Positions 3,635-9,964 of a DNA stretch of 20,167 bases are shown here, in pieces. The stretch's first letter is position 1; each line of letters opens with the position of its first letter. Position numbers and translations under genes: made by a program. The notes under the pieces are model-generated. The model saw nothing but the letters and a program-made list of their open reading frames with translations, made no database searches and was not told the DNA's origin. Origin of the DNA: a virus; IMG/VR virus record IMGVR_UViG_3300009610_000995, positions 1-20,167 of that record, one strand, 5' to 3'.

Positions 3635-4048
3635 CTAGTACACCAGCACTCCCATCACCGGAGCCATCGGATAGGCCGGCAGCACCGGCGTGTAGTAGGT
3701 CATCGCCGGACGCACCGGCGAGGGAGCATGGTACACCGGATAGCCTCCCGTGTAGGACGGCCGCGGCGCAATCACGATCGGCGCCTCGGTGGCATACGGA
3801 TTGTTGGCGGACTGATTCGAGTACGGCGAACCATACCTGCCATACGGGTTGTTGACGCTGTCGGACTGGTACGGCGAGCCATACCGCCCATACGGATTGG
3901 CGATGCTATTCGGGTCATACCGATTCGACGAGAGATTGCCGAGATACTTGCCGTCGCGGCTGACGACGATCGGAGATTGGGCCGACAGCGTGATGCCCGC
4001 GGCCAGCGCCAGTGTGCAGAACCGGCTAAAGCCAGTGATGAGTTTCAT
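3635..4048 (-). CDS. exported protein with NPYGRYGSPY repeats
   Basis: This 137-residue protein has a clear Sec signal peptide: MKLITGFSRF with a basic start, a hydrophobic core and a likely cut after LSA (about residue 23). The mature part opens with SRDGKYLGNLSSNRYDPNS, then carries two full NPYGRYGSPY repeats and a degenerate NPYAT copy (about residues 50-87), ending in a Pro/Tyr-rich tail. I know this repeat pattern from small secreted bacterial proteins of unknown function; it is unusual next to phage replication genes and may be a host-derived morphon. The ATG at 4048 follows the AAAGGATC plus AC-rich leader, which rules out the earlier in-frame TTG at 4069. A hammerhead ribozyme and a promoter precede it. 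Confidence 0.78.
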   Translation of the reverse strand: MKLITGFSRFCTLALAAGITLSAQSPIVVSRDGKYLGNLSSNRYDPNSIANPYGRYGSPYQSDSVNNPYGRYGSPYSNQSANNPYATEAPIVIAPRPSYTGGYPVYHAPSPVRPAMTYYTPVLPAYPMAPVMGVLVY

Positions 4049-4075
4049 TGTGTTGTGTGATCCTTTCAAGGTAAA

Positions 4076-4136
4076 AGCCTGTCTCTTCAGGCGCGGGAGG
4101 CTATCCCCGCGCGACCCGGAGCAGCCGGGTTTCGAC
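4076..4136 (-). ncRNA. hammerhead ribozyme (type II), copy C
   Basis: Minus-strand order: GAAA core (4133-4130); stem III CCCGG/CCGGG (4129-4125 with 4119-4115) with loop CTGCT; T4114 paired to A4130; cleavage-site C at 4113; stem I GCGCGGG/CCCGCGC (4112-4106 with 4097-4091) with loop GATAGCCT; CTGAAGA core (4090-4084). Stem II is GAC (4083-4081) with GTC (4136-4134), followed by AGGCT (4080-4076), complementary to AGCCT in the stem-I loop. All universal hammerhead core bases are present. Predicted cleavage is between 4113 and 4112, 64 bases upstream of the ATG at 4048. This copy has the best stem II of the three. Confidence 0.86.
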
Positions 4137-4147
4137 CTTTGTTCTAC

Positions 4148-4175
4148 TTTATACGCTTTTGTCTGACTTTGTACA
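4148..4175 (-). promoter_or_regulatory. candidate promoter TGTACA-16-TATAAA
   Basis: On the minus strand TGTACA (4175-4170) and TATAAA (4153-4148) are 16 bases apart. The predicted start near 4141 would put the first transcribed bases right at the stem-II strand of the hammerhead at 4076-4136. No TCTANNTAGA operator is present here. Confidence 0.5.
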
Positions 4176-4193
4176 GTTATTTCGTTGAGCTAA

Positions 4194-4205
4194 GCTTGCC
4201 GATTA
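4194..4205. repeat. dispersed 12-bp repeat, copy 2
   Basis: GCTTGCCGATTA on the plus strand. On the minus strand it supplies the TAA stop of the 26-aa reading frame at 4203-4283 and lies about 19 bases upstream of the candidate promoter at 4148-4175. Confidence 0.7.
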
Positions 4206-4283
4206 CACCCGCCGCCGCAAGCGCAGCCCGACCGGCCACAGCAGCAGCCAGAGCATGAGGCCAAACGGCCGGCGCGCGGTCAC
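4203..4283 (-). CDS. candidate 26-aa membrane peptide
   Basis: A 26-codon frame begins with GTG at 4283, overlapping the TGA stop of the upstream gene as GTGA, a classic coupling arrangement. The peptide has a basic start (TARRPFG), a single hydrophobic stretch rich in Leu and Trp (MLWLLLWPVGL, about residues 10-20) and an RRR end, so it could insert into the membrane. Its TAA stop falls inside the dispersed 12-base repeat. No family can be named for so short a frame, and it may be fortuitous; the overlap and composition are the only evidence. Confidence 0.4.
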   Translation of the reverse strand: MTARRPFGLMLWLLLWPVGLRLRRRV

Positions 4284-4462
4284 CGCTTGACCGCCGGATA
4301 GAACAGGGAATACCCGTTATCCGCCCAATTCGACCGCTTGACCGCGGCGCCCGTGCGATCCGCCTCGAGCTGAGCCGCGGCATTAGCCTGCTTCAATTCC
4401 GAGTCGCGAAACGATACCCGCTCGCCATCGACGGCGACGTAGCAATACTTCAGTTCCCGCAT
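4280..4462 (-). CDS. hypothetical 60-aa protein
   Basis: This 60-residue protein begins MRELKYCYVAVDGERVSF, a predicted beta hairpin, followed by a helix rich in Ala, Gln and Glu (SELKQANAAAQLEADRTG, about residues 21-38) and a C-terminal strand ending YSLFYPAVKR. I do not recognise the family. The ATG at 4462 was chosen because it follows a GGGAAAC site and an AC-rich spacer matching the leader of its neighbours; the frame is open further upstream, but that extension lacks a leader and would overlap the end of the 47-aa gene. It is one of several small adaptor-sized proteins in the same operon. Confidence 0.68.
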   Translation of the reverse strand: MRELKYCYVAVDGERVSFRDSELKQANAAAQLEADRTGAAVKRSNWADNGYSLFYPAVKR

Positions 4463-4502
4463 GTTGTTGTTTCCCACTTTCTGTTGAATAATCTCGAGCT
4501 GG

Positions 4503-4514
4503 GCTTGCCGATTA
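4503..4514. repeat. dispersed 12-bp repeat, copy 3
   Basis: GCTTGCCGATTA on the plus strand, in the 142-base gap between the 47-aa and 60-aa leftward genes, 41 bases upstream of the ATG at 4462. Confidence 0.7.
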
Positions 4515-4604
4515 GAAGCTCCCAATTTGCCCCAGGAACGCGCGCGCCCTTCGGGTGGCTCCGGACCCACCAGGGAGACCGCCGCAACGCCCCACGCGCT
4601 ACCC

Positions 4605-4748
4605 CTACTGCGTTTGCCAGGGATTCTCCTGGACTTCGACCTTCTCGCCATGGAGCAGATGCGCCCACGCAATATCCTGCGCATCTTCGCGCCTTATGCC
4701 GTGATACCGCGCCACGCCATTGACGTGAACCGTGTAGATTGTCTTCAT
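4605..4748 (-). CDS. hypothetical 47-aa protein
   Basis: This short gene encodes 47 residues starting MKTIYTVHVNGVARYHG, with a helix (REDAQDIAWAHLLHGE, about residues 20-35) and the end VEVQENPWQTQ. The ATG at 4748 is preceded by AAAAGGGACACACAAC, a near-perfect match to the shared leader of leftward genes, which is the main evidence that it is real. The pattern of a short beta hairpin plus one helix resembles the 60-aa protein just downstream (MRELKYCYVAVDGERV), so the two could be distant relatives. Function unknown. Confidence 0.68.
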   Translation of the reverse strand: MKTIYTVHVNGVARYHGIRREDAQDIAWAHLLHGEKVEVQENPWQTQ

Positions 4749-4821
4749 GTTGTGTGTCCCTTTTGTGCGATAGATTCGCGCCTACGCTCACCCCGCGGAT
4801 AAGCGTAATGCGAGCCCACCA

Positions 4822-5061
4822 CTAGACCAAACGCAGCGCACAGGCCAAATGCATCTCTTCATGCCCCATCGATACCACCCGCCCGCCACCATACAGACAC
4901 CACGTGCTATCCACACCCGCATAATGGCTGTGGTTGTGCACCGTCAGCGCCACACCCTGTGCGCGATAAACGCGCGTCTCGTGGTTCCGGCCTTCCATGA
5001 AGGACTCCGCTAACGTGAGTCCGTGTCTTTGCGCCAATACTTCGAAACGTATGCTTTTCAT
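4822..5061 (-). CDS. hypothetical 79-aa protein
   Basis: This 79-residue protein begins MKSIRFEVLAQRHGLTLAES and is mixed alpha/beta, with several histidines (HNHSHYAG, about residues 42-49; GHEEMHLA, about 66-73) and a Cys. The histidine-rich centre could bind a metal, but no known motif is clear. The ATG at 5061 is preceded by AAGGGAACACACAACA, the strongest form of the leftward initiation leader. It sits 36 bases after the stop of the Gp88-like gene. I do not recognise the family. Confidence 0.72.
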   Translation of the reverse strand: MKSIRFEVLAQRHGLTLAESFMEGRNHETRVYRAQGVALTVHNHSHYAGVDSTWCLYGGGRVVSMGHEEMHLACALRLV

Positions 5062-5097
5062 TGTTGTGTGTTCCCTTCTATTCCCAAATCTTCGCGC

Positions 5098-5871
5098 CTA
5101 AGCGGCCGCGCCAATCTGTATCAACTGCGATTGCACAACGAACGAACTCTGGACCTTCTTTGCCTCTCCCTTTGCCCGTAGCCCGACGATCACCCCCCGC
5201 GGATCGAGGAAACGAACGTCATGCTCATCGCCATCAATCACGCGATAACCGTTCCACGATTCAGGCAAATCTTGCCCGCGACGAGTATCAAAAACAACGG
5301 AGACATTCACGCCATGCGCCAGAGCCTCGAGACACTCCGCCAGATTCTCCCCGCTGTACGAAAACGTCAGCTGATAGTTGTAACGCGTCCGCAACCACGA
5401 TTTCGGCAACTTCGTGTAATCGTAGAACATCACCTGCGGAAACTCGCGTGCCATCATCATCGCCACCCAAGGCAAATCAGAAGTCCCGTTAAAGCGAACG
5501 GCCGGCTTCAATCCCTCCCTCTCCGCTTCCCGTATCAATGCCTTGATATCCCTCCGCAACGCATTCAGAAACGACTCGCGATCCTCCCACAACCAAACCG
5601 TCTTCCCAATCCGTGCCCGCTTGATCTCAGGAAATATCTTCGATCGACCGCTGTCATACAGACATGCTTCGATGCATCCCTCCGTAGCGAACGTACAAAC
5701 ATTCATCACCCCAGATTCATTCGCCGGCGCCAAATAGCAGATACCCGTCAATACCCCTAAACTCTCTCCCTTGATCGTCTTGGCGTTCTGTGTCTGCAAC
5801 ACAGCCCCGCGCTTGTACCCTTCCTGATACCCTGCTACTACCGCCGACCGCAACCCTTCAATAAATCCCAC
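5098..5871 (-). CDS. Gp88-like phage protein
   Basis: This 257-residue protein matches the phage Gene Product 88 family known from mycobacteriophages and many metagenomic phages. The diagnostic stretch is GVLTGICYLAPANESGVMNVC followed by EGCIEACLYDSGR (about residues 39-76), giving a C59-x6-C66-x3-C70 cysteine cluster. Later conserved-looking blocks are VRFNGTSDLPW (125-135), FYDYTKLPKSW and LRTRYNYQLTFSYSGEN. The family has no proven function; the cysteine cluster suggests metal or cluster binding. The start is GTG at 5871, chosen because AAGGGA lies eight bases upstream, right after the hammerhead element at 5886-5939. Confidence 0.85.
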   Translation of the reverse strand: MGFIEGLRSAVVAGYQEGYKRGAVLQTQNAKTIKGESLGVLTGICYLAPANESGVMNVCTFATEGCIEACLYDSGRSKIFPEIKRARIGKTVWLWEDRESFLNALRRDIKALIREAEREGLKPAVRFNGTSDLPWVAMMMAREFPQVMFYDYTKLPKSWLRTRYNYQLTFSYSGENLAECLEALAHGVNVSVVFDTRRGQDLPESWNGYRVIDGDEHDVRFLDPRGVIVGLRAKGEAKKVQSSFVVQSQLIQIGAAA

Positions 5872-5885
5872 TGTTCTAATCCCTT

Positions 5886-5939
5886 AGCCTGATCTTCAGA
5901 CCACGGAGGCTATCCCGTGATGACGCCCGTAGGCGTTTC
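5886..5939 (-). ncRNA. hammerhead ribozyme (type II), copy B
   Basis: Minus-strand order: GAAA (5939-5936); stem III CGCC/GGCG (5935-5932 with 5927-5924) capped by TACG, a UNCG-type tetraloop; T5923 paired to A5936; cleavage-site C at 5922; stem I ATCACGG/CCGTGGT (5921-5915 with 5906-5900) with loop GATAGCCT; CTGAAGA (5899-5893); then TCAGGCT. AGGCT (5890-5886) complements AGCCT of the stem-I loop. Stem II next to the core is weak. It begins six bases after the stop of the 73-aa gene and ends beside the AAGGGA ribosome binding site of the Gp88-like gene. Cleavage is predicted between 5922 and 5921. Confidence 0.84.
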
Positions 5940-5944
5940 ACTCC

Positions 5945-6166
5945 CTATAACGCCCGGTACCGTGCCGCAAAATGCATCTCCAAACGCAACAACGGTCCAT
6001 ACGCTTCCACGTCTATTCCCGGCTCTGCCTTCGCTTCCCGGATCAGTGAAAGCATCCACATCAGCGCCTTCTTCTCATCCATAACCTTCGCTCCCGTCTC
6101 CGCTTGCCACGCCTTCAGCAGCCCTTCCCTCGTCAACGTCGCCTTCATCCAAAATGCCTTGTTCAT
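5945..6166 (-). CDS. hypothetical 73-aa protein
   Basis: This 73-residue protein is largely helical: MNKAFWMKATLTREGLLKAW, then MDEKKALMWMLSLIREAKAE (about residues 29-48), an acidic loop (PGIDVEAYGP) and a final helix LLRLEMHFAARYRAL. No cysteines, signal peptide or membrane segment. I do not recognise it. The ATG at 6166 follows AGGGAACACACACAA, the canonical leftward leader. It is bracketed by two hammerhead elements (copies A and B), so self-cleavage at both would release it as its own monocistronic RNA. Confidence 0.72.
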   Translation of the reverse strand: MNKAFWMKATLTREGLLKAWQAETGAKVMDEKKALMWMLSLIREAKAEPGIDVEAYGPLLRLEMHFAARYRAL

Positions 6167-6184
6167 TTGTGTGTGTTCCCTATC

Positions 6185-6238
6185 AGCCTGATCTTCAGTG
6201 CACAGAGGCTATCCTGCGCAGACGCCCAAAGGCGTTTC
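6185..6238 (-). ncRNA. hammerhead ribozyme (type II), copy A
   Basis: Minus-strand order: GAAA (6238-6235), starting one base after the upstream stop; stem III CGCC/GGCG (6234-6231 with 6226-6223) with loop TTTG; T6222 paired to A6235; cleavage-site C at 6221; stem I TGCGCAG/CTGTGCA (6220-6214 with 6205-6199) with loop GATAGCCT; CTGAAGA (6198-6192); then TCAGGCT. AGGCT (6189-6185) complements AGCCT in the stem-I loop (6210-6206). Stem I differs from copy B but stays paired. TCAGGC could alternatively pair with GCCTGA in the end of the upstream gene. Cleavage is predicted between 6221 and 6220. Confidence 0.84.
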
Positions 6239-6239
6239 A

Positions 6240-6458
6240 CTATTCAGGCAACTCCAATCCACGCGCGTCGAGCATCTCCTGCAACGGCATCTCCTGCTGA
6301 AACTCCTCTGCCTTCAACTCCACGCGCGTCCCATATACCGCCTCTAGTTCTATCTCCAACTCCGCCGTCGCCGCCCACAACGCCTCTTGCGCTTCCGCCG
6401 CTATCCTCAGCAATTCGTATGCTTTCGTCAATCGCTTGTCATGTGCTGTGTTGTTCAT
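6240..6458 (-). CDS. hypothetical 72-aa helical protein
   Basis: This 72-residue protein appears wholly helical and acidic: MNNTAHDKRLTKAYELLRIA, then alanine/glutamate-rich repeats (EAQEALWAATAELEIELEAV, about residues 22-41), and a C-terminal EFQQEMPLQEMLDARGLEL. It could form a coiled coil. No family is recognised. It is the first gene of the leftward operon starting from the promoter at 6465-6493. No Shine-Dalgarno site precedes the ATG at 6458, and the -10 box ends only six bases upstream, so translation from a leaderless mRNA is likely. Its stop codon is immediately followed by hammerhead copy A. Confidence 0.7.
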   Translation of the reverse strand: MNNTAHDKRLTKAYELLRIAAEAQEALWAATAELEIELEAVYGTRVELKAEEFQQEMPLQEMLDARGLELPE

Positions 6459-6464
6459 ATTCAG

Positions 6465-6493
6465 ATAGTAACTTGAACCTCTATCTAGAACAA
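6465..6493 (-). promoter_or_regulatory. promoter TTGTTC-17-TACTAT, leaderless
   Basis: On the minus strand TTGTTC (6493-6488) and TACTAT (6470-6465) are 17 bases apart. The predicted transcription start coincides with the ATG at 6458. An operator palindrome TCTATCTAGA (6480-6489) overlaps the -35 end and spacer, as in the two other leftward operator promoters. Confidence 0.66.
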
Positions 6494-6526
6494 TAGGACT
6501 TAGGTACTGTTTTGAGATTACCTACA
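6480..6526. promoter_or_regulatory. operator cluster, third copy
   Basis: TCTATCTAGA (6480-6489) is followed 19 bases later by CTTAGGTACT (6499-6508, core TAGGTA kept) and 18 bases later by ATTACCTACA (6517-6526, the inverted form of the core). The 19-base first step matches the clusters at 712, 1834 and 9967. The outer sites are weaker than in the other clusters. Confidence 0.55.
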
Positions 6527-6774
6527 AGTTGCTACGATCGCAAAGATTCGTAGCACACTTTCACTGCCTTTGGTCTGCGACCGACCGCTCCTTCGCCGGG
6601 TATTTCAGGCCAATGCCACAGCTCACAGCTCGTTTCGTGGGCAAAGGAGCCTACCACAGGGGGAAGATGCGCCAATGCCTGCGCGCAGCGCAGCCTTTGG
6701 TGCAATCGATGCTCGTATGCCGCAGCCGTTGAGGGCTCTCGAGGGCTGCGAGGCCGGCAATCGCACAGCGCCTG

Positions 6775-6786
6775 GCTTGCCGATTA
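6775..6786. repeat. dispersed 12-bp repeat, copy 4
   Basis: GCTTGCCGATTA on the plus strand inside the non-coding divergent region, the only copy outside the leftward gene block. Confidence 0.7.
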
Positions 6787-8257: not shown

Positions 8258-9964
8258 TCACTCCCCGGCGATCTTCTCTTCGGCGAACTGGCAGAAGAAC
8301 GAGCAGGAGAAGTTCAGCTCGCCCCCGCGTTTGCCGGGTCCGGGCGGCAATTCGGCGAGGCTCATCCGCTCGCCTTCCCGTGGCCCCGAGCGGTGCTGCA
8401 GGAAGTAGGCGCCTTCGCCGATCTCTTCCTGGATCTTCTTCACCGCGGCAAAGCGTTCCGGGAAATCGGCGCGGATGGCCTGCCAGTAGGACTGGCCGCC
8501 CTTGGGGCAGCCGAGGCAATTGCCGGTGAGGATGTTGCCTTCGAGCGTAAAGGCTTGCCCCTCCGGCACCACCGCGCAGAACACCTCTTCGACCCGCTCG
8601 GTTGGTTCCACCGATACCACGATCCACGGATGCGGCTCGCGCGGGTTCGACCACAGGAAGCGCCGCCGGTGCTCTTCGATGAGAAAGAAATCCTCGCGCA
8701 GGGTGTCTCCGATCAACGAGAGCGAGTAGAGCGCCGACTCCTCGCGCCCGGCAAAGCCGCGCCGCATCACCTTCCGGATGGAGTTGACGCCGATCCCCAA
8801 GCGAATGGCCACGTTCCGCGCGAATTCCACATGCGTGTAGTTAGCCGAGGATAGGGTGTAATCTCCTCGCTCGGACACGCAGCCATCGGCGGCGAAGTAT
8901 CCAGCTAGCCACCCGTATAGGTAGCTCTGGCACTCCTCGAGCGGGGGTAGATCCTTCCAGTGCCTCGGCAGATCCTTCACCTCGATCCCAGCTTGGGAGG
9001 GACGAGTGGGGCTGAGTGGAAAGTAGCGGAGGAGTTCGCGGTCCTTCTCGCCGCACAGGACCACCGTCCCGGCCGTATTCAACGTACTCTGGCGCGAGCC
9101 GTCCCCGAAGACGATCCCTTGGGCAATCCCGAAGGCCGAGGGCCGCACGCGCGCTCCTAGGCGGCCGAACACGCTCCGCAGCCGGTCGCCCGGTCTCAGT
9201 TCCTCGGTAGTGCGCTCGAGTTTGGCCGCGTGCACGTACTGCTTGACGAACCAGCGATGGCCCGCCGTAGCGAAGATGACCTTCTCGGTAGAGTTGCGCC
9301 GAACAGACAGTTTCATCAACGGCTGCTCGCCGAAGGAGTGGATCGAGGCTTCTTCCCACCCGCCCCCGGCTCCCCGCACTCGCACGGTCTCCCCCACGGC
9401 AGCGCCCAGCGTCCGGACCCCCATGTCCGTCAGGAATTCGGTGTCGCCCGAAAAACAATTCGCATTGTCGTAGCCGAGTTCGTACATGATGGGGATGCGG
9501 AGGCCGGCGCGCTCCACGATGGCGAGGCAATCGCCTTTGTCTAAGCCCTCCTCGATCAGCGGCGCCCGGAATGTCTCATCCGGGTAAAGGTCTTGGAGAT
9601 TCGAGAAGCGGTCTTCTTCCTCGCGCGTGAAGCCGAATACCGACACGTCGCCCGGCAACATGATCTTTTTGAGCAGCTTGCGCTTCAGCTCCTGCGAGCA
9701 CGGCGCCCCGTTCGGCCCCTTGATGTAGCGCTTCCTCTTCCACACCTCGTCGGTCGACGCTCCGTAGGTTTCGTCCCGCAGCACCGTCACAGGGTGGCCA
9801 AACCAGGTTTCGCAGTCGGCGAGGAACCGCCGGTTGTCCGGGTGCTCCTCCACGAGGAACGCATTCACGATCACCACGTCATTGTGATCCTGTTCGGCTA
9901 GGATCAGTTTAGTCGCCACCGCCGAGGCCGCGCCGCACGAGAACTGGCATACGTACCTGGACAT
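8258..9964 (-). CDS. PAPS reductase-like protein containing an intein
   Basis: This 568-residue precursor is a phage PAPS-reductase-like PP-loop protein split by an intein. The N-extein (1-169) has the loop QFSCGAASAVATKL (7-20), EEHPDNRRFLADC (39-51), KGPNGAPCSQELK (82-94) and ends GYDNAN. The intein spans C170 to N482. The C-extein (483-568) starts CLGCPKGGQSYW and ends near CSFFC. Splicing would join GYDNAN to CLGC and give a 255-residue enzyme of normal length for the family; the insertion sits exactly at the conserved cysteine pair. Substrate unknown. The ATG at 9964 has AGGTGG about 11 bases upstream and faces a divergent promoter carrying an operator palindrome. Confidence 0.9.
   Translation of the reverse strand: MSRYVCQFSCGAASAVATKLILAEQDHNDVVIVNAFLVEEHPDNRRFLADCETWFGHPVTVLRDETYGASTDEVWKRKRYIKGPNGAPCSQELKRKLLKKIMLPGDVSVFGFTREEEDRFSNLQDLYPDETFRAPLIEEGLDKGDCLAIVERAGLRIPIMYELGYDNANCFSGDTEFLTDMGVRTLGAAVGETVRVRGAGGGWEEASIHSFGEQPLMKLSVRRNSTEKVIFATAGHRWFVKQYVHAAKLERTTEELRPGDRLRSVFGRLGARVRPSAFGIAQGIVFGDGSRQSTLNTAGTVVLCGEKDRELLRYFPLSPTRPSQAGIEVKDLPRHWKDLPPLEECQSYLYGWLAGYFAADGCVSERGDYTLSSANYTHVEFARNVAIRLGIGVNSIRKVMRRGFAGREESALYSLSLIGDTLREDFFLIEEHRRRFLWSNPREPHPWIVVSVEPTERVEEVFCAVVPEGQAFTLEGNILTGNCLGCPKGGQSYWQAIRADFPERFAAVKKIQEEIGEGAYFLQHRSGPREGERMSLAELPPGPGKRGGELNFSCSFFCQFAEEKIAGE
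8519..9457 (-). mobile_element. LAGLIDADG homing-endonuclease intein (313 aa)
   Basis: The intein begins CFSGDTEFLTD (block A, catalytic C170) and has the block B motif ATAGHRWF (TxxH, residues 232-239). Two LAGLIDADG-type motifs follow, IAQGIVFGDGS (280-290) and LYGWLAGYFAADG (349-361). It ends VVPEGQAFTLEGNILTGN followed by the +1 Cys. The terminal Asn (N482) is present but the usual penultimate His is Gly. Splice residues C1, TxxH, N and +1 Cys are all in place, so splicing is plausible. The endonuclease motifs look intact, which suggests it is still able to home. Confidence 0.9.

Follow-up and report, generated by a model that had tools for sequence, protein, structure and literature searches.

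In this work, we analysed a 20,167-base virus record (IMG/VR record IMGVR_UViG_3300009610_000995; the whole stretch is called the window below) and found that three minus-strand elements in it, named A, B and C, are genuine type II hammerhead ribozyme motifs as judged from their sequences. This identity is based on matches to RF02276, the type II hammerhead model of Rfam, on covariation in homologous phages, and on the position of the elements, with a stop codon on one side and a ribosome binding site on the other. The hammerheads probably self-cleave during transcription and would thereby cut the leftward polycistronic RNA of the phage in the gaps between its genes. The analysis shows their sequence, structure, conservation, covariation and placement, from which we infer cleavage, protection of the new ends and an effect on expression.

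All three elements lie where a preliminary description of this DNA had placed them, and RF02276 covers each of them end to end (Table 1), with E = 0.003 for B and 0.03 for C when all 4227 Rfam families were searched against the whole window. The same description had predicted an Rfam match for all three, which holds at the curated gathering cut-off of 37 bits for A, while B and C score below it. A loop I-core-tail pattern (GATAGCC-N7-12-CTGANGA-N2-5-AGGC) matched three times in the window against 0.00 expected, and never in 100 shuffles. A structural scan for GAAA, both stems, the core with its 3-8 pair and a pseudoknot gave a single match in 2.9 Mb x 2 strands of reversed sequence, that is, ~0.007 expected per window against the three seen, so that three per 20-kb window lie far above chance. 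Neither the Rfam search nor the structural scan returned a fourth element in the window.

Each element runs in the order GAAA, stem III hairpin, cleavage site, stem I hairpin and CUGANGA, with stem II open, and all three share the GAAA, a GUC cleavage site, a CUGAAGA core, a stem I of 7 base pairs (bp) and a minimal stem II. In A, GAAA (4133-4130) leads into stem III (4130-4125/4119-4114, ACCCGG/CCGGGU), a predicted cleavage site between 4113 and 4112, after C4113, stem I (4112-4106/4097-4091, GCGCGGG/CCCGCGC) and the core (4090-4084). B has stem III at 5936-5932/5927-5923 (ACGCC/GGCGU) with a UACG loop, a predicted cut between 5922 and 5921, stem I at 5921-5915/5906-5900 (AUCACGG/CCGUGGU) and the core at 5899-5893; C carries the same stem III at 6235-6231/6226-6222 with a UUUG loop, a predicted cut between 6221 and 6220, stem I at 6220-6214/6205-6199 (UGCGCAG/CUGUGCA) and the core at 6198-6192. 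The loop GAUAGCCU is common to the three, and its (U)AGCCU pairs with AGGCU(A/G) directly 3' of stem II, which gives every element a loop I/3'-tail pseudoknot of 5-6 bp (AGCCU 4102-4098 with AGGCU 4080-4076 in A, 5912-5907 with 5890-5885 in B, 6211-6206 with 6189-6184 in C) that the preliminary description had overlooked. Its account of a core in type II order and of a 7-bp stem I with three different sequences was borne out in A, B and C, and its account of the other two stems needs amendment. Stem III does differ between A and B/C, but B and C are identical there save for the loop; stem II is minimal, with just 3 bp in A (4136-4134/4083-4081, GUC/GAC, including the G10.1-C11.1 pair) and with one G-C pair behind a U10.1.U11.1 mismatch in B and C. 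Element C starts inside a UAG stop codon (6242-6240), whose G6240 is the stem II G able to pair with C6190.

Relatives were located through the 137-amino-acid, GP88 and terminase-like proteins encoded in the window, not through the hammerheads, and no close named phage was found, the best terminase match being 31% identical. Element A precedes the same gene in the related loci L303, L304, L305, L306 and L308 (L307 equals L306 over this stretch). In the A set of six aligned sequences, all 120 of 120 cells are paired and three pairs are doubly changed; one stem III pair turns from C-G to G-C, one stem I pair is A-U, G-C or G-U, and the window has C-G at the catalytic pair 3-8, where four relatives have U-A and L306 has U-G. 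The B/C set (B, its counterparts, and C as a paralog; five sequences) keeps 94/94 cells paired with four doubly changed pairs, the two-sided changes affecting three pairs of stem I and one of the pseudoknot (a C-G to G-C exchange among relatives of B). When the structures were slid by 1-3 columns, 32-48% of the cells were paired for A and 27-43% for B/C, in a comparison that draws on few sequences, with shuffles uncorrected for relatedness, and that is consistent in direction. Covariation of stems I and III in homologous phages, on which the preliminary description had staked its reading, is therefore present with all compared pairs kept. The compensatory changes that stems, core and pseudoknot have undergone across the aligned relatives show that selection acts on how the RNA folds and not on sequence identity.

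The placement of the elements points in the same direction as their structure. The cuts had been described as lying 50-64 nucleotides (nt) upstream of three start codons, and these distances were recovered at all three elements (Table 1); the stop codon of the upstream gene ends 1 nt before GAAA at C and 5 nt before it at B, and A is left without an upstream gene. For comparison, we surveyed type II hammerheads from IMG/VR pattern scans, keeping only matches with both stems and the pseudoknot since the first viral scan was loose; elements were chosen by loop and tail sequence and not by upstream flank (one scan fixed GTG before AAAC), and the survey is a non-random sample of the family with open reading frames (ORFs) called by simple rules. 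A start codon with a Shine-Dalgarno-like sequence lies within 120 nt past the cut in 57/68 (84%) non-redundant elements, against 36% for random same-strand positions, and the cut-to-start distance is mostly 44-66 nt and typically ~54 nt. All elements lie on one strand in 25/25 multi-element loci, some of which overlap, and exactly one ORF is bracketed by 11 of the 21 neighbouring element pairs. The phage contigs L039, L029, L231 and L354 carry arrays in which 5-7 type II hammerheads follow one another at intervals of mostly 330-800 nt, and several hammerhead pairs there bracket one small gene each.

Based on these findings, we propose that the elements would cut the nascent leftward polycistronic mRNA between genes, with stems III and I as closed hairpins flanking the scissile bond. 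Cleavage would leave the upstream mRNA with the stem III hairpin and a 2',3'-cyclic phosphate at its 3' end, a short distance past its stop codon, and the downstream mRNA would start at the stem I hairpin with a 5'-OH, 50-64 nt before its own start codon. When the RNA was folded only up to the end of stem I, stems III and I were optimal in all three elements, so that the RNA may plausibly fold as it emerges, ahead of transcription of the core. An RNA that begins with a 5'-OH and a hairpin is resistant to 5'-end-dependent decay, and one that ends in a hairpin is resistant to 3' exonucleases; the hairpin on each side of the cut, taken with this general knowledge of decay, favours a polycistron cut into separately stable mRNAs. 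The result would be single- or few-gene mRNAs that fold and decay separately, each ribosome binding site being insulated from upstream sequence. Such mRNA processing is the best reading of the role that had been suggested for the elements, and the reading of separately stable mRNAs extends a proposal made by Perreault et al. (2011; PMC3088659).

Several observations weigh against this proposal. B and C fall under the RF02276 gathering cut-off, although everything else about them is inside the range described for the family, and both carry the U.U mismatch in stem II; a U10.1-U11.1 mismatch and a U3-A8 variant have been recorded before (PMC3088659), the former being a known tolerated variant, and U.U at 10.1/11.1 occurs in 12/68 survey elements, one scan having been designed to find such cases. 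A pseudoknot-free fold of B favours a hairpin that hides the core, and the two folds become comparable once a pseudoknot term is added; folding without the pseudoknot was uninformative (z -1.1 to -2.3), and the alternative hairpin was dropped as a conserved feature since its stem is not kept in orthologs. Both elements of L306/L307 have UUUGAAGA instead of CUGANGA, a core of 8 nt that is one base longer, and their activity may be reduced or lost. Finally, C and the 73-amino-acid gene are absent from L221, L222 and L226, and L304 apparently lacks B, which indicates that no fixed set of cuts is required. Two side observations belong to these relatives: the same altered core in both L306/L307 hammerheads has parallel change or homogenisation between elements as candidate origins, and an ORF at L304:4855-5025 runs through the hammerhead and ends over the start codon of the next gene.

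An alternative, rather unlikely in our estimate, is that the ribozymes are gated by translation: with the upstream stop codon in or beside stem II, a terminating ribosome would cover GAAA and stem III, and cleavage would depend on the density of translation of the upstream gene. In 38/88 non-redundant survey elements, the distance from the end of a stop codon to GAAA is exactly 2 nt, other distances being represented by 0-11 elements each (typically ~4), and 33 of these 38 stops close the longest of the three upstream frames; 21 elements unused in forming the idea, and included in the 88, have the same peak with 8/8 in frame. Stops 2 nt before GAAA of A also occur in L303, L305 and L306, and in C the G of the stop codon is itself a stem II base capable of Watson-Crick pairing. 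However, tight packing of phage genes yields the same geometry, a reading frame enters or crosses the element in L308 and L304, and the gap at B is 5 nt. The broader statement that type II hammerheads of phages are attached by design to the upstream stop codon, with termination gating cleavage and linking mRNA separation to upstream translation, is unlikely; this stop-codon geometry was not found in the openly licensed literature searched, mostly at title and abstract level.

It is also unlikely that the elements are kept mainly as gene-exchange sites, that is, as short homologies for swapping accessory genes with RNA cleavage being secondary. The gene directly upstream of A is a small one, mutually unrelated in L303, L304, L305, L306 and L308 and missing from the window, and A and its downstream gene stay together despite this turnover. 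C with the 73-amino-acid gene forms an extra hammerhead-gene unit flanked by direct repeats, and the 84% identity of B and C suggests that a hammerhead was duplicated around an inserted gene. The compensatory changes described above argue against exchange as the main function, as they keep the fold and not the sequence. Conservation of the core and of the pairs likewise makes it very improbable that the hairpins lack ribozyme activity and represent intrinsic terminators or decayed remnants, a reading for which a terminator-like hairpin overlapping the tail of A and the altered core in L306 could be quoted; as terminators they were rejected, terminator-like matches being at chance level (3 against 2.5 expected). 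The least credible explanation is that paired cuts free a small or circular RNA between the elements, as in hammerhead-interspersed VIPR vrRNA arrays, which have been reported (PMC13142463) and of which an array in Marinithermofilum abyssi (L363) has the appearance; the intervals here hold protein genes, including the Pfam GP88 gene, and a VIPR-type array was discarded for the window, which has no GGY/NN repeats.

The elements are alike to known type II hammerheads of RF02276 in permuted order, core, GUC site, minimal stem II and the loop I/3'-tail pseudoknot, which is critical for fast cleavage in this type (Perreault et al., 2011; PMC3088659). The same study reported prophage genes flanked by several hammerheads, with clusters in Agrobacterium tumefaciens (a triple set around ardA), Azorhizobium caulinodans and Clostridium scindens, and with a triple set cleaving in vitro and in E. 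coli; an mRNA 5' end of the haloviruses HF1/HF2 maps to a hammerhead-variant site (PMC3088659). The window resembles these clusters in that several same-strand hammerheads flank single genes or short gene blocks in a phage genome, but it belongs to another phage lineage with other genes (GP88 and small hypothetical proteins) and is known from environmental sequence alone. The preliminary description had regarded three hammerheads in one operon region as special, a claim that the published triple set and our contigs with 6-7 Rfam type II matches (G010, G011, G012) do not uphold. The type II architecture, the pseudoknot, the U.U mismatch, the U3-A8 variant and clustering in prophages are already described (PMC3088659), and the window is a further case of this known kind. 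The VIPR vrRNA arrays (PMC13142463) likewise contain tandem hammerheads that would divide a long transcript into units, but those units are guide-like RNAs, whereas the units of the window are protein genes. A 2017 review calls the role of prokaryotic hammerheads an open question (PMC6155905).

The plus strand of the window encodes portal and terminase-like proteins, and the three elements lie within a block of genes that run leftward (Table 1). The GP88 gene, a 79-amino-acid ORF and two smaller ORFs stand between B and A; the elements do share a leftward operon region, but their earlier assignment to tandem genes is loose in view of these further genes. The 73-amino-acid protein has no Pfam or PHROG match.

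Table 1. Hammerhead elements and adjoining leftward genes of the window
Feature	Positions	Strand	Remarks
Element A, type II hammerhead	4073..4137	-	RF02276 37.5 bits; orthologs in 5 relatives
Element B, type II hammerhead	5883..5943	-	RF02276 32.7 bits; orthologs in relatives, where stem I and the pseudoknot covary
Element C, type II hammerhead	6182..6242	-	RF02276 28.9 bits; 84% identical to B over 57 nt
137-amino-acid gene, hydrophobic N-terminus	3635..4048	-	start 64 nt past cut A; also behind A in relatives
GP88-family phage protein (PF17338, phrog_1617)	5098..5871	-	GTG start 50 nt past cut B
73-amino-acid hypothetical gene between C and B	5945..6166	-	start 54 nt past cut C; stop codon 5 nt ahead of the GAAA in B
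72-amino-acid hypothetical gene that apparently opens the leftward operon	6240..6458	-	UAG stop overlaps C

Other features of the minus strand were observed beside the hammerheads. A conserved leader (6455-6514), which in relatives contains AGTACCTAAGTACT-like and AGATAG..CTATCT inverted repeats, lies ahead of the first operon gene and is a possible promoter or operator; a scan found no sigma-70-type promoter directly before A, where an AT-rich stretch is conserved among relatives. A non-coding block at 4766-4824, beginning directly after a TAG stop, is ~98% identical in L221 and L222 with flanks at roughly 79-88%; a long hairpin is predicted for it, in which L308 has two compensatory changes, and the block has no Rfam match and was found in this phage group only. 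The intergenic block at 4480-4612 is conserved in five relatives and GC-rich with a predicted fold, without compensatory changes, and a repeat inside it recurs at 4187-4205 and 6768-6786. At 8258-9964, a protein with PAPS-reductase-like ends (by eye) is apparently split by a putative intein with a LAGLIDADG_3 domain (junctions CFSGDTEFL ... ILTGNC/LGCP). Outside the window, the Marinithermofilum abyssi array (L363:7058-7890, NZ_BMHQ01000020.1) consists of seven type II hammerheads at a spacing of 122-146 nt, joined by non-coding GGY/NN-like linkers and preceded by a 210-amino-acid protein gene and an HNH-like gene, and resembles a hammerhead-interspersed VIPR vrRNA array (PMC13142463).

In conclusion, this locus adds a clear hammerhead set together with its orthologs, among which C3-G8 and U3-A8 have been naturally exchanged, and the geometry found in the survey, namely a stop codon 2 nt before GAAA, a start codon ~54 nt past the cut and often one gene per ribozyme pair, points to gene-by-gene mRNA processing.

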